A stretch of DNA of 64,000 nucleotides from Phytoactinopolyspora halotolerans (GTDB lineage Bacteria > Actinomycetota > Actinomycetes > Jiangellales > Jiangellaceae). The stretch covers positions 62,001 through 126,000 of the forward strand of contig NZ_JAAGOA010000003.1 in the NCBI RefSeq assembly GCF_010550675.1, read 5' to 3'. The first letter of the stretch is position 1. Each line of letters starts with the position of its first letter. Shown here piece after piece: positions 29,341-34,495 of the stretch. The translations under genes and the position numbers were made by a program. Under the pieces are notes generated by a model. That model saw only the letters and a list, made by a program, of their open reading frames with translations, had not been told where the DNA came from and searched no databases.

Positions 29341-30807
29341 TCAGCCCTCCTCCGACAGGCGGTCGGCGGCGCGGGTGAGTAGGTCCATCATCTGATCCGC
29401 TGTGACATCGTGGTCGCTGGCGCTGTCGATACCGTGGTTGACGACGGTGATCGCAGTGCCCTGCAGCGCGATGCCGAAGACGAAGGTGATGCCGAACTCC
29501 TGGTCTTCCTCTCGCCAGGTGGAGATCGCCCGGTTCCCTTCGTCGACTGAGCTGGTGTTCTCCAGGTTGCGTCCGTCGTCGTTGTAGGACTCCGCGGCGG
29601 CGACCATGTCCTCGTAGTGCGCACGGGCGGTCTCGGCGTCTGGGAACTCGGCGATCTCCTGATCGACGCTTAGGTAGACCGCGCCCGTAGGGTCGCTCTG
29701 CTGGTAGAAGCGGCGCTGGAAGAACGTGGCACCTGCGCTCTCCGGGTCGAGCGGCAGGTAGGTGAGCGCCCAGCCTGGTGGGCCGCCGCCGTCGTTGGCC
29801 TCGAGCGGCTCAGTGCCTTCGACGATCTCCTCCAAGCCGGTCGCCGCGACGACGTCGTCCACGCGCAGCCAGCCGTCGATATCGCCGATCGGCTCGCGAT
29901 CGGTCTGCTCGGCCGCGACTTCACCGACACACTCGGTCCCGAACGCAGCGCAAAGCCGCTCGCCGGAGAGCGCAGAATCTTCCGTGTCCATGTTGGCGTT
30001 GTCGTCCTGGCCTGGGCCACCCTGGATCACGACGTTCACGTAGTTGCCGGTCCGCATCATTCGGACGGAGACCAGGTTCGCCACGAAGAAGTCGTCGGGT
30101 TGCTCCATCTGGTCGAAGTAGTTGGCCATCCAAGCCTCGTCGCCGATGCCGGAGACGTTCCAGGTCTGGCTGATCTGGGTGTACTGGTCCTCGTCGCTCT
30201 GTTCCAGATCGCGGACGCAGCGCTCCAGGTCAGCGCGGATCTGCGAGAACCGGGCGACAGGGTCCTCCGTCTCCTCGATGAACTGCAGGAAGTGGCCGTC
30301 GCCGTCGTTCTCGTAGGCGCTGTAGTCGGTTCCGTCCGGTGCCACGGGTGCGCAGTCGAACGGCGTCTGACGCGCGTCGGTCGCCGTCCATTCCGGGAAG
30401 ACGTCGCCCTCCTCGCCGTCGGGCGTGATGTCCTCGACGGTCATGAAGGCATCGTCCGGGATGTCGTCGCCGCCACCGCCGCCGTCCGGTGGCGTCGGGT
30501 CGCCGTCCGGCGGGGTCGCGTCGTCGGTCTCATCCGGAGTGTCCGGCGTGGTGGGGGAGACCGTCGGCGTCCTGGTGTCGGTCGGCTCCGCGGGTTCGGG
30601 TGCGGTGAACATCTGGTCTTGGGTGATGCCGATGACGCCGATGGCCAGGACGGCGATTCCGGCGAGTGCGCCGGTGGTGATCTGGTTGCGGGTGCGTTGT
30701 GCGGCTCGTCGGCGTGCGGCGTGGGGTCCGGGCATGTGGGTGCCGGTGGTGTCGGCGCTGAGAGAGTTCAGCCGTTGTTGTAGTTCGTTGTCGAAGTTGT
30801 CGGTCAC
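29341..30807 (-). CDS. Single-pass membrane protein paired with an ECF sigma factor, copy 1
   Basis: 488 residues. A short cytoplasmic head with HMPGPHAARRRAAQ is followed by one membrane helix (TGALAGIAVLAIGVIGI, about 43-60), a Thr/Pro/Asp/Gly-rich linker and a large acidic outer domain of unrecognised fold with a few cysteines. The GTG start overlaps the stop of the sigma gene (GTGA), so the two are coupled. By position it is the likely anti-sigma or sensor partner, although no zinc anti-sigma motif is visible. The second copy at 31502-32407 shares the N-terminal 60 residues but differs outside the membrane, so the two may sense different things. Confidence 0.7.
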   Translation of the reverse strand: MTDNFDNELQQRLNSLSADTTGTHMPGPHAARRRAAQRTRNQITTGALAGIAVLAIGVIGITQDQMFTAPEPAEPTDTRTPTVSPTTPDTPDETDDATPPDGDPTPPDGGGGGDDIPDDAFMTVEDITPDGEEGDVFPEWTATDARQTPFDCAPVAPDGTDYSAYENDGDGHFLQFIEETEDPVARFSQIRADLERCVRDLEQSDEDQYTQISQTWNVSGIGDEAWMANYFDQMEQPDDFFVANLVSVRMMRTGNYVNVVIQGGPGQDDNANMDTEDSALSGERLCAAFGTECVGEVAAEQTDREPIGDIDGWLRVDDVVAATGLEEIVEGTEPLEANDGGGPPGWALTYLPLDPESAGATFFQRRFYQQSDPTGAVYLSVDQEIAEFPDAETARAHYEDMVAAAESYNDDGRNLENTSSVDEGNRAISTWREEDQEFGITFVFGIALQGTAITVVNHGIDSASDHDVTADQMMDLLTRAADRLSEEG

Positions 30808-31295
30808 GGCTGTTCACCTCCCGTCGCGATGCTGGTGTCGTCGGTGAGCAGTTTGGCTAGTGCGGATCTGCCTCTGGAGAGGCGGGCTTTGATGGTGCCG
30901 GTGGGTGCGCCGGTTTCGGTGGAGATTTCTTCGACGCTCATGCCGACGAGGTGGTGTAGGACGATGGCGCGTCGTTGGGCTTCGGGTATGTGGCGTAGTG
31001 CGGTGACGAGGGCGACGTGGTCGGGGTTGGGTGGTGCGGTGTTCTCGGGTGTGCCGTGGCGGGCCATGGCGGTGACGGCGTTTTTGGCTTTGCGCCAGCG
31101 GCTGGCGGCGATGCGCCAGGCGACGGTGCGGACCCAGGCTTCGGGGTTGTCGGCTTGGCTGACGGTTTTCCAGCGTTGCCAGGCTCGGGCGAAGGCTTCT
31201 TGGGTGCATTCTTGGGCGTCGGCCAGGTTGCCGGTCATGGCGTACATCTGGTGCAGGACACGACGATTCGACGCGTTGTAGAACGCATCAAACTC
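30803..31295. repeat. 493-bp direct repeat, copy 1 (sigma gene)
   Basis: Identical base by base, on reading both, to 32403-32895 (offset exactly 1600 bp). It covers nearly the whole sigma-factor gene and the first codons of its partner. Identity stops abruptly at both ends. Confidence 0.95.
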
Positions 31296-31310
31296 GTCTT
31301 CCCTACTCAT
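30804..31310 (-). CDS. ECF RNA polymerase sigma factor, copy 1
   Basis: 168 residues. Region 2 is FDAFYNASNRRVLHQMYAM, then DAQECTQEAFARAWQRW. Region 4 is IPEAQRRAIVLHHLVGMSVE, then GTIKARLSRGRSAL. ATG at 31310 has GAGAGGATG upstream. The coding strand uses codons rare in the rest of the window (for example CTA twice and ATA once near residues 105-120) and is C/A-rich at third positions. Except for its first 5-6 codons it is identical in DNA to the second sigma gene. It is coupled to a membrane partner. Confidence 0.93.
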   Translation of the reverse strand: MSREDEFDAFYNASNRRVLHQMYAMTGNLADAQECTQEAFARAWQRWKTVSQADNPEAWVRTVAWRIAASRWRKAKNAVTAMARHGTPENTAPPNPDHVALVTALRHIPEAQRRAIVLHHLVGMSVEEISTETGAPTGTIKARLSRGRSALAKLLTDDTSIATGGEQP

Positions 31311-31501
31311 GTCATCCTCTCGTTCTTCTCCGCGGTGTCCCGGGGTTCAGGCGGTGTGGCCACGCCGCTGGTCTCTACACGTCAAGACTCGCGAGTCCCG
31401 GTGGCGGTTGCATCGGACTGGGGCATGTTGTCATGCATCCCGCACCATCAGTGGACGGCACGCTCAGGAGCGAGCGAAATCGTCCTGGCGGCGTAGCCTT
31501 C

Positions 31502-32407
31502 CTAGCCGCCGTCGCCGGTATCGCCGTCGTCGGTGCTCGCGTCGCCGCCGAGGCCGTCGTCGAACTCGGGCTGACCGACGCACGTAGTCTCGAATAGCAC
31601 CTCGCACATCCGCGCCGTCGCCTGTGCCGGGGTCTCGAGGTCGAGCGATCCGTCGTTGGAACGCGTCGGTTCTGTGCGGACCATGACACTGACGACGTCG
31701 GCATAACGGACCAGGGTGACAGTGGGAGCTGGGGCATCCTGGTCGGCTGGATCGGTCGAGTAACTCGTGATCCAGCCTTCCTCCCCCACATTTTCGAGGC
31801 CACCGACGTTGTATCTCCACGGCTCGCCCTCCACCGGGCTTTCCGGCAGGCACGACTCCATCTCGTCCTGGATATCGTCGAGCAACTCTTCGGCGACCGT
31901 CTCCGACTCCGTACGGATGAGGTGCTGCATCATGCCGTTGCCGTCATCGGCCGTGAAATCGATTCCCGCCTCGTCGAGCACAGCCGCTTCGTTGATGGGC
32001 GGCCCGCATTCGACGGCCGGATTCGGCTCCTCCGAGACGGTCCAGGTCAGCTCGTCGCCGGAGATGTCGTCTGCGGTCATCAACGCTTCGGAGAGCTCCG
32101 CACCGGTCTCTTGCTGTTCGTCGGGCATGGGACTGGGCACGACGGTAGGAATGTCGGTGGGCGCAGGGGTGGGGCTCTGCGTTGGTCCAACGGGTTCGGG
32201 CGCGGCGAAGATGCCGTCTTGGGTGGTGCCGATGACGCCGATGGCGATGGCGGCGACGCCGGCCAGGACGGCGCCGGTGACCTGGTTCCGGGTGCGCCGC
32301 GCGCCGCGGCGTCGGGCGGCGTGGGGTCCGGGCATGTGGACGTCGGTGAGGTCCGTGCGAAGCGCGTCGAGTTGTTCGTGAAGGGGGTCCTCGGCGTTAT
32401 TCGTCAC
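31502..32407 (-). CDS. Single-pass membrane protein paired with an ECF sigma factor, copy 2
   Basis: 301 residues with the same plan as copy 1: HMPGPHAARRRGAR, one membrane helix (VLAGVAAIAIGVIGT), then a Pro/Thr/Ser linker and an acidic outer domain ending in an Asp/Gly-rich tail. The first 60 residues resemble copy 1 closely, but the outer domain is shorter and barely alignable apart from scattered blocks such as the C-V-Q/E region near the end. The start overlaps the sigma stop (GTGA). Likely an anti-sigma or sensor with a different signal. Confidence 0.7.
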   Translation of the reverse strand: MTNNAEDPLHEQLDALRTDLTDVHMPGPHAARRRGARRTRNQVTGAVLAGVAAIAIGVIGTTQDGIFAAPEPVGPTQSPTPAPTDIPTVVPSPMPDEQQETGAELSEALMTADDISGDELTWTVSEEPNPAVECGPPINEAAVLDEAGIDFTADDGNGMMQHLIRTESETVAEELLDDIQDEMESCLPESPVEGEPWRYNVGGLENVGEEGWITSYSTDPADQDAPAPTVTLVRYADVVSVMVRTEPTRSNDGSLDLETPAQATARMCEVLFETTCVGQPEFDDGLGGDASTDDGDTGDGG

Positions 32408-32895
32408 GGCTGTTCACCTCCCGTCGCGATGCTGGTGTCGTCGGTGAGCAGTTTGGCTAGTGCGGATCTGCCTCTGGAGAGGCGGGCTTTGATGGTGCCG
32501 GTGGGTGCGCCGGTTTCGGTGGAGATTTCTTCGACGCTCATGCCGACGAGGTGGTGTAGGACGATGGCGCGTCGTTGGGCTTCGGGTATGTGGCGTAGTG
32601 CGGTGACGAGGGCGACGTGGTCGGGGTTGGGTGGTGCGGTGTTCTCGGGTGTGCCGTGGCGGGCCATGGCGGTGACGGCGTTTTTGGCTTTGCGCCAGCG
32701 GCTGGCGGCGATGCGCCAGGCGACGGTGCGGACCCAGGCTTCGGGGTTGTCGGCTTGGCTGACGGTTTTCCAGCGTTGCCAGGCTCGGGCGAAGGCTTCT
32801 TGGGTGCATTCTTGGGCGTCGGCCAGGTTGCCGGTCATGGCGTACATCTGGTGCAGGACACGACGATTCGACGCGTTGTAGAACGCATCAAACTC
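32403..32895. repeat. 493-bp direct repeat, copy 2 (sigma gene)
   Basis: Second copy of the identical block, 1600 bp from the first. Sequence upstream of 32895 differs fully from the other copy, so each sigma gene has its own promoter region. Confidence 0.95.
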
Positions 32896-32907
32896 CGTCA
32901 CCTCCAT
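32404..32907 (-). CDS. ECF RNA polymerase sigma factor, copy 2
   Basis: 167 residues from the ATG at 32907 (MEVTEFDAF). An upstream in-frame start at 32937 would add ten residues. From EFDAFYNASNRR onward the protein is identical to copy 1. Identical DNA-binding regions mean both sigmas must use the same promoters, so any difference lies in the membrane partners and in expression. Divergent from the AHSA1-ArsR operon. Confidence 0.92.
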   Translation of the reverse strand: MEVTEFDAFYNASNRRVLHQMYAMTGNLADAQECTQEAFARAWQRWKTVSQADNPEAWVRTVAWRIAASRWRKAKNAVTAMARHGTPENTAPPNPDHVALVTALRHIPEAQRRAIVLHHLVGMSVEEISTETGAPTGTIKARLSRGRSALAKLLTDDTSIATGGEQP

Positions 32908-33025
32908 GAGTTCAGCCACCCCTGCCGACTCCTCCAATCGGTGGCAGCCGCGGCGCGACCACCTCTACTCGATGAAGACCTGTGACCCGGCGGTCGGGTT
33001 GCATGGTGCGCCGAAGATGTAGATG

Positions 33026-33097: not shown

Positions 33098-33559
33098 ATG
33101 GAGTTCGGAACCATCGAGCGCGAGATCCACATCGACGCGTCGCCGGAGATCGTCTTCGAGGTGGTGAGCAGTCCGGACCATCTCAAGGAGTGGTGGCCGG
33201 ACGAGGCGCACTACAGCCCGACGCCTGGATCATCCGGGGAGATCGTCTTCGGCGATCCGGACGCAGGCGGGCAGGCGGTGCAGTTCACCGTGGTCGACGT
33301 GCGGCCACCGCGGATGTTCTCGTTCCGCTGGACACACCCGGCCGACGCGGTGGCGGTGGAGGGTAACTCGCTCTTCGTCACGTTCGAGCTGACCCCGTCG
33401 GGCAGCGGGACTCTGCTGAAGATGACCGAGACCGGCTTCCGCGAGATGGGCTGGGAGGCCGCCGTCCTTGAGAAGGAGTACCACGAGCACGTCACCGGGT
33501 GGGACTACTTCCTATCGCGGCTGGCACCGTACGTCGCGACGCTGGAGCCACGGCCGTGA
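33098..33559 (+). CDS. SRPBCC/AHSA1 family protein
   Basis: 153 residues of the START/Bet-v1 fold (Aha1-like). IEREIHIDASPEIVFEVVSS is the typical first strand and helix, then WWPDEA and a C-terminal helix with GWDYFLSRL. Such proteins bind hydrophobic ligands; the ligand is unknown. GGAGG lies before the ATG. It overlaps the ArsR gene by 4 bp (GTGA). Confidence 0.85.
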   Translation: MEFGTIEREIHIDASPEIVFEVVSSPDHLKEWWPDEAHYSPTPGSSGEIVFGDPDAGGQAVQFTVVDVRPPRMFSFRWTHPADAVAVEGNSLFVTFELTPSGSGTLLKMTETGFREMGWEAAVLEKEYHEHVTGWDYFLSRLAPYVATLEPRP

Positions 33560-33921
33560 GTACCGAGATGGCCGAGAGGATCGACGACGACCTCTGGTCC
33601 GCCGTCGGCGACCCGACCCGTCGTCGGATGCTCGACCTGCTGCTCATGCAGGGCGAGGGCACCGCGACCACCCTGGGCCAGCAGCTGCCGGTCACCCGGC
33701 AGGCGGTCGCGAAACACCTCAGCGTTCTCGACCGGGTCGGCCTGGTGCGGGCGTCGCCGGCAGGTCGGGAGAAGCGGTACCGGGTGGACGAAGCCCAGCT
33801 CGCGCGCGCGGTGGCCCAGCTGTCCTCGGTCGGGGCCGCGTGGGACGCCCGGCTACAGCGGATCAAGCGGATCGCCGAGCGGATCCAGAACACACAACAG
33901 GAAAAGCGACAAGAAGACTGA
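33556..33921 (+). CDS. ArsR family transcriptional regulator
   Basis: A 121-residue winged-helix repressor: LWSAVGDPTRRRMLDLLL, then LPVTRQAVAKHLSVLDRVGL. It lacks metal-binding cysteines. This type is common beside AHSA1 genes and probably senses an organic ligand. GTG start coupled to the first AHSA1 gene. Confidence 0.9.
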   Translation: MSTEMAERIDDDLWSAVGDPTRRRMLDLLLMQGEGTATTLGQQLPVTRQAVAKHLSVLDRVGLVRASPAGREKRYRVDEAQLARAVAQLSSVGAAWDARLQRIKRIAERIQNTQQEKRQED

Positions 33922-33941
33922 CGAGATCAAGGAGAGTCGAA

Positions 33942-34385
33942 ATGGTAGATATTCTGCACAGGGTCGGGATCAAGACCTCGAATCCGGAGAAGGTATACGA
34001 GGCGTTGACCACTATCGAGGGCCTGGCCGGCTGGTGGACCGACGACACCAAGGGCAGCGCCGAGGTCGGCGGCGTCCTCGAGTTCCGGTTCCCACCGGGC
34101 GGCTTCGACATGGAGGTCCTCGAGCAGCGGCCGTCCGAGCGCGTGGTGTGGCGGGTCGTCGACGGGCCGGAGGAGTGGATCGGGACGATCGTCGACTGGG
34201 ACCTCCGCCAGGACGGCGACTACACGATCGTACTGTTCAAGCACCAGGGCTGGAAGGAACCGGTGGAGTTCATGCACCACTGCAGCACCAAGTGGGCGAC
34301 GTATCTGATGAGCCTGAAGTCCTTGGTGGAAACGGGCGAGGGTGCGCCGTCGCCGCGTGACGTCCACATCGCCTACCCCGACTGA
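33942..34385 (+). CDS. SRPBCC/AHSA1 family protein, second copy
   Basis: 147 residues. MVDILHRVGIKTSNPEKVYE starts the fold, and LAGWWTDDTKGSAEVGG and FMHHCSTKWATYLMSLKSLV follow. AAGGAGAG precedes the ATG. Third gene of the ArsR operon; it is not close to the first AHSA1 protein in sequence, so not a recent duplicate. Confidence 0.85.
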   Translation: MVDILHRVGIKTSNPEKVYEALTTIEGLAGWWTDDTKGSAEVGGVLEFRFPPGGFDMEVLEQRPSERVVWRVVDGPEEWIGTIVDWDLRQDGDYTIVLFKHQGWKEPVEFMHHCSTKWATYLMSLKSLVETGEGAPSPRDVHIAYPD

Positions 34386-34401
34386 CACCCGAGGCCGCCG
34401 C

Positions 34402-34495
34402 CTAAATGATCATGTGAAGTAGGTCTTCTCCAGCACTACCATGCCTGCAGACCTGGTACGGCACGAGAAAACCCACTTCACATGATCATTTAGGG
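34402..34495. repeat. 94-bp palindromic repeat, family B copy 1
   Basis: Terminal arms CCTAAATGATCATGTGAAGT (34402-34421) and the exact complement (34476-34495). The interior holds CTACCATGCCTGCAGACCTG and is itself partly self-complementary around CTGCAG. It lies between the AHSA1 operon and the DUF6350 gene. Two more copies are at 56901 and 57592. Confidence 0.92.

Follow-up and report, generated by a model that had tools for sequence, protein, structure and literature searches.

The 64,000-nt window analyzed here, a stretch of contig C23 of the 7.3-Mb genome of the soil bacterium Phytoactinopolyspora halotolerans (labelled G000), raises the question of how two neighboring ECF sigma genes can agree at every base over 493 bp while their membrane partners have drifted far apart, and what such an arrangement could mean for the signals that the partners receive. 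On the minus strand a sig2-par2 module is followed by a sig1-par1 module, and the sigma stop and the partner start overlap by 4 nt. The features of the locus are as follows:

32975..33003, minus strand: predicted autoregulatory promoter of sig2-par2, TGCAACC-N17-GTCTT (genome-wide pattern search; conserved at the locus in relatives)
32404..32907, minus strand: sig2, ECF sigma factor of 167 aa (Sigma70_r2 and r4_2 over the Pfam cut-offs; start codon ATG at 32907 read from the sequence)
32403..32895, minus strand: identical tract, copy 2 (base-by-base comparison)
31502..32407, minus strand: par2, putative membrane anti-sigma partner of 301 aa with one outer domain (ORF, alignment, low-confidence model)
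31384..31412, minus strand: predicted autoregulatory promoter of sig1-par1, TGCAACC-N17-GTCTT (genome-wide pattern search; conserved at the locus in relatives)
30804..31310, minus strand: sig1, ECF sigma factor of 168 aa (Pfam; TIGR02983 at 142.1 bits against a cut-off of 141.55)
30803..31295, minus strand: identical tract, copy 1 (base-by-base comparison)
29341..30807, minus strand: par1, putative membrane anti-sigma partner of 488 aa with two outer domains, of which the second has the PknH extracellular fold (ORF; model and fold match to 4esq)

The two tracts agree at 493 of 493 bases at a distance of 1600 nt, and the flanking base differs at both ends. They span the sigma gene from the codons for EFDAFY through the stop, and the N-terminus is the sole difference between the two sigma proteins (the longest ORF of sig2 begins at a TTG, 32937; the ATG at 32907 was taken as start). 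This comparison bears out the first-pass annotation, which had reported two ECF sigma genes identical over 493 bp, and its description of a tandem pair with strongly diverged membrane partners also holds: par1 and par2 are 57% identical in residues 1-46 (cytoplasmic), 67% in residues 47-70 (membrane) and 22% in the sensor. Had both copies been diverging for as long as the sigma gene of the nearest relative, which is 9.8% different, the chance of zero differences in 493 sites would be about 8e-23. A third near-identical copy was not found in the G000 genome, where the next best match is 82% over 56 nt. Beyond the 5' edge of the sigma tract, the first full 30-nt window contains 13 of 30 matches; windows on the partner side contain 16 to 25 of 30 out to about 200 nt past the tract. 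The sharp borders that had been claimed are correct in that the next base differs on each side, but in the long run homogenization seems to reach into the partner's first 75 residues.

Both sigma proteins contain Sigma-70 regions 2 (r2) and 4 (r4_2) over the Pfam cut-off and nothing else. Their scores for the SigE family TIGR02983 (142.1/141.9 bits for sig1 and 140.5/140.2 bits for sig2) lie around the curated cut-off of 141.55, so the assignment is borderline. The SigE-family sigma profile is matched at E <=1e-15 by 33 sites in G000, 11 of them over the curated cut-off. The third codon positions of the two genes (30804-31310 and 32404-32907) have an odd composition of 20% A, 61-63% C, 13-14% G and 4% T, compared with 3% A, 52% C, 42% G and 3% T in sucD; this make-up is common to the G003 sigma genes, weaker in those of G002 and G001, and absent from those of G004, G005, G009 and G010.

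In order to follow the history of the locus, we compared 22 genomes of the family (G000 included) and G029 from another family. The Phytoactinopolyspora group comprises G000-G005, whose same-genus genomes match named Phytoactinopolyspora records, the sequence of G003 matches Phytoactinopolyspora limicola, and G004 is P. alkaliphila. Twelve genomes belong to genus g3, identified as Jiangella by exact matches of seven of them to named records. In G008, neither the sigma nor par2 found a match in this comparison. Where enough of the surrounding sequence was covered, the locus is flanked by genes that we take to be sucCD and a DUF6350-type gene, then purN. The sigma pair is present in G000 and G003; G001, G002 and G005 possess one sigma and par1, and G004 combines a single sigma-par1 module with a par2 that lacks a sigma gene, which amounts to a loss of par2 or its sigma in all four genomes. 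One sigma and one partner stand at the locus in G007, G009 and G011. In Jiangella the arrangement is sigB-par1-sigA-par2 in 11 of 12 genomes and par1-sigA-par2 in G014; because Phytoactinopolyspora has sig2-par2-sig1-par1, the order of the sensors is swapped between the genera.

The sensors and the sigma genes tell different histories. In a tree of the sensors only, 14 par2 sequences are split from 20 par1 sequences (100/99), and in a tree of whole partners all 15 par2 sequences lie on one side of a branch (90/96). Both sensor clades occur in Jiangella too; therefore the duplication is older than Jiangella and Phytoactinopolyspora, and the pair is not the product of a recent duplication of the whole operon. 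In the sigma tree, sig1 and sig2 of G000 are joined (100/99), as are sig1 and sig2 of G003 (100/100). G003 holds the same array; its two sigma genes share a tract of 360 identical nt, after which differences are scattered. When the four copies of these two species are compared, 52 sites unite the copies of one species, and no site unites them by position or crosswise; synonymous divergence amounts to 0 in G000, 0.054 in G003 and 0.30-0.33 between the two genomes. Hence the sensors are old and position-specific, and the sigma genes are young and species-specific. Since each copy resembles its neighbor in the same genome more than its positional counterpart in the other species, and since the sensor clades show that the duplication predates the species split, the sequences indicate that the sigma pair is undergoing concerted evolution, for which gene conversion is most simply the mechanism. 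The annotation had proposed homogenized sigma genes, together with a comparison among strains as a check; carried out between species instead, this check agrees with the proposal, the copies being identical or nearly so within species (over 360 nt in G003) and different between them. Purifying selection on the DNA was also considered as a cause of the identity and is ruled out by the 52 sites shared within each pair but different between G000 and G003, together with the synonymous divergence of 0.30-0.33.

A 493-bp repeat exceeds the length of common short reads, and the contig of G003 breaks inside sig1; both facts could point to an assembly artefact, in which the copies differ in the cell and one consensus has been placed twice. 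We regard this as very improbable. The break in G003 is an exact overlap of 126 nt, which is what a k-mer assembly should produce at a genuine exact repeat, the differences just past the G003 tract have stayed distinct, and two separate assemblies, G000 and G003, present the same pattern.

As for the origin of the second sigma gene, the sigma alone may have been copied independently in each species, and recently, upstream of a sigma-less par2, with no recurrent conversion. G004 demonstrates that a sigma-less par2 can exist, and the sig2 leaders of G000 and G003 show only weak similarity (z 3.5-3.9). The sig1 leader of G002 is a strong match for those of both G000 and G003 (z 9.6-12.4), which match each other only at z 3.9-4.2. 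Because the match between the sig2 leaders is no better than that between the sig1 and sig2 leaders of G000 (z 4.3-4.4), the leaders are only partly informative about the history of sig2. Independent copying would, however, require two insertions at one site that share their end points, one codon and the partner start; moreover, the 360-nt identical tract of G003 with its subsequent scattered differences points towards mosaic tracts, and a third species, G001, has a leader of the sig2 type directly before a sigma gene (z 6.8-7.3 to sig2 of G000, 5.1-5.3 to that of G003). We therefore judge independent copying to be unlikely. This G001 leader precedes the single sigma-par1 module, an arrangement that we would expect if recombination between the sigma genes had deleted par2.

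Under recurrent conversion, recombination between the copies would repeatedly write one sigma gene over the other and stop where homology ends. The homogenized pair was found in two species, G000 and G003. In Jiangella, by contrast, the tandem sigma genes have diverged in 11 of 12 genomes (62-72% nucleotide identity) at an equal spacing of the copies; homogenization is therefore not automatic.

The homogenization seems to extend beyond the sigma gene, to the sigma-side and membrane segment of the partner. A tree of the partners' first 75 residues, i.e. the sigma side and the membrane helix, does not separate par1 from par2 and groups them by genus: 24 Jiangella rows of both partner kinds fall together (96/95), and par2 of G000 lies among Phytoactinopolyspora par1 sequences (84/90), with par2 of G003 and of G004 apart. 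A single par2 clade is rejected for this segment (AU test, p 0.019), a result that comes from a short segment with several long branches and from one single test. In these residues, par2 of G000 is 57-66% identical to par1 of G000 versus 38-43% to par2 of G003; in the sensor the figures are 22% and 51%, respectively. Conversion in this lineage may thus at times have continued past the sigma gene into this part of the partner. Alternatively, the grouping of the N-terminal segments by genus could reflect selection on the partners to bind one common sigma, and both explanations would fit partners that share a sigma.

Residues 310-487 of par1 adopt the PknH extracellular fold in the model (4esq, Z 16.5, rmsd 2.7 A, 161 aligned residues), but are joined to a putative anti-sigma segment and not to a kinase. 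The corresponding domain profile, PF14032, scores 20.5 bits in par1, below the Pfam gathering cut-off of 27, and is matched by three of 11 par1 members at E 0.01 and by one of 10 par2 members at E 0.05. For par2 the model is weak (mean pLDDT 58.2), and its top match is the same 4esq chain at Z 6.7, tied with others. Searches of solved structures by sequence gave no match for par2 and, for par1, two at E 0.7-0.8 to an unrelated aldolase. In both models two N-terminal helices are predicted at low confidence, the second extending into the membrane. The alignment places a second outer domain, missing from par2 of G000, in the rows of G003 and Jiangella. The par2 proteins (31502-32407; L039, 8262-9140) appear modular, the second outer domain having been lost in G000 and the first in G004.

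No class I anti-sigma domain of Pfam was matched by par1 or par2 at E 1. According to PMC7406223, the class I domain averages about 100 aa, with Hx3Cx2C if zinc-binding, and class II anti-sigma proteins (CnrY) are short and of a two-helix type. In class II the two helices wrap around the sigma factor, which is bound and inhibited. The cytoplasmic segment of the partners has about 46 aa and no cysteine, and recalls the CnrY class in size. Like known pairs of an ECF sigma and an anti-sigma factor that crosses the membrane once (RseA, RskA and CnrY types), the locus has sigma regions 2 and 4, a partner gene that overlaps the sigma gene and encodes a single-pass protein carrying an outer domain, and a promoter-like motif before the sigma gene. 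It differs in the short cytoplasmic segment without a recognized anti-sigma domain or cysteine, and in having two partners for one sigma sequence.

The identity may also be real and yet serve gene dosage or nothing at all; in that case the partners would not act as anti-sigma factors on a common sigma, and homogenization would be a by-product of tandem repeats. Consistent with this are the missing anti-sigma domain, the small cytoplasmic segment, and the loss of par2 or its sigma in four genomes. Conservation of the partners, however, peaks in the cytoplasmic segment and the membrane helix, sigma-less partners retain the promoter, and the equally spaced Jiangella copies are not homogenized; we consider a role in dosage, or none, rather doubtful.

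The promoter motif provides a further link between the modules. A search of the 7.3-Mb genome for TGCAACC-N16-18-GTCTT gave two exact matches, one preceding sig1 and one preceding sig2, each with a spacer of 17, versus one match for the reversed-pattern control. The locus is present in 21 genomes of the family, and in every one of them the shorter form TGCAACC-N17-GTC precedes it; the shorter form also precedes the sigma-less par2 of G004 and par1 of G014, but it is absent from the 230 nt ahead of each inner sigA gene in Jiangella. Near the 33 SigE-family sites of G000 it occurs only at sig1 and sig2. Across the G000 genome this loose form is not in excess (17 matches versus 14 in the control), and a broad regulon deduced from the motif was rejected.

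A possible target is an exported protein without a Pfam match (G000:C19:97960-98916), chosen for its motif. It is matched in six of 22 genomes: G000, four Jiangella genomes (56-58% identity over nearly the full length; two of these four matches contain an internal TGA) and, weakly, G008. GCAACC-N17-GTC lies upstream of the gene in G000 and in the four Jiangella genomes, which had not been picked by motif, and is absent in G008. An exported DUF4232 protein has the motif in both of the two genomes (out of 22) that encode it, both having been motif hits beforehand. In seven Jiangella genomes (L170, L173, L178-L182), a gene for a large regulator of about 640-655 aa, read as BTAD type, has TGCAACC-N17-GTCAT 6-9 nt ahead of its start codon. 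Other motif hits lie in coding DNA or lack a clear gene.

Taken together, we think it probable that the locus consists of two ECF sigma/membrane-partner modules, an ancient tandem pair, in which the sigma genes are evolving in concert and diverged sensors act on one regulon. Given the matching promoters and the partners without their own sigma, the likeliest reading is 'one regulon, two sensors', as the annotation had proposed. According to this model, par1 and par2 would be membrane anti-sigma factors that hold the same sigma, and different outside signals would release it. The freed sigma would activate both operons via their matching promoters, plus probably a small further set of genes, and its identical sequence would keep both sensors tied to one regulon. 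Whether the inputs are additive or coincident would be set by the ratio of partner to sigma, which the 4-nt overlaps should hold near one. More tentatively, gene conversion might preserve the uniformity of an output module, made up of the sigma and the N-terminal part of the partner (sigma side and membrane), and leave the sensors free to diversify, shorten, get lost or be re-ordered; the result could be a two-input switch on one regulon, maintained by recombination, with losses of par2 as the price of that recombination.

ECF systems are usually described as one sigma and one anti-sigma factor, insulated by co-evolution. Here, two diverged sensors are seemingly held on one sigma sequence by recombination, which makes it testable whether selection after duplication favors sharing or insulation, and Jiangella, with its diverged corresponding sigma genes, offers a natural contrast. 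The parts are of known kinds; what seems new is their combination, a homogenized module beside diverging sensors. In full-text searches of mostly open-access papers, the titles and the beginnings of abstracts among the matches listed revealed no ECF sigma pair described as subject to gene conversion. Concerted evolution of duplicated bacterial genes (tuf and the 26 genes of Wang and Chen, PMC6053082) has been attributed to gene conversion, and there too copies are more alike within than between species; the genes named in that paper are enzymes, tuf, flagellin and similar, and the word 'sigma' is absent from its text, whereas in our case a sigma gene is homogenized beside diverging sensors.

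Between sig2 and the DUF6350-type gene lie three plus-strand genes (33098-34385), read from sequence alone as SRPBCC, ArsR-like and SRPBCC; a search of 17 stretches of other loci with the encoded proteins gave no match at E 1e-5. Positions 34401-34494 form an inverted repeat with arms of 47 nt, 83% complementary and with zero spacer.
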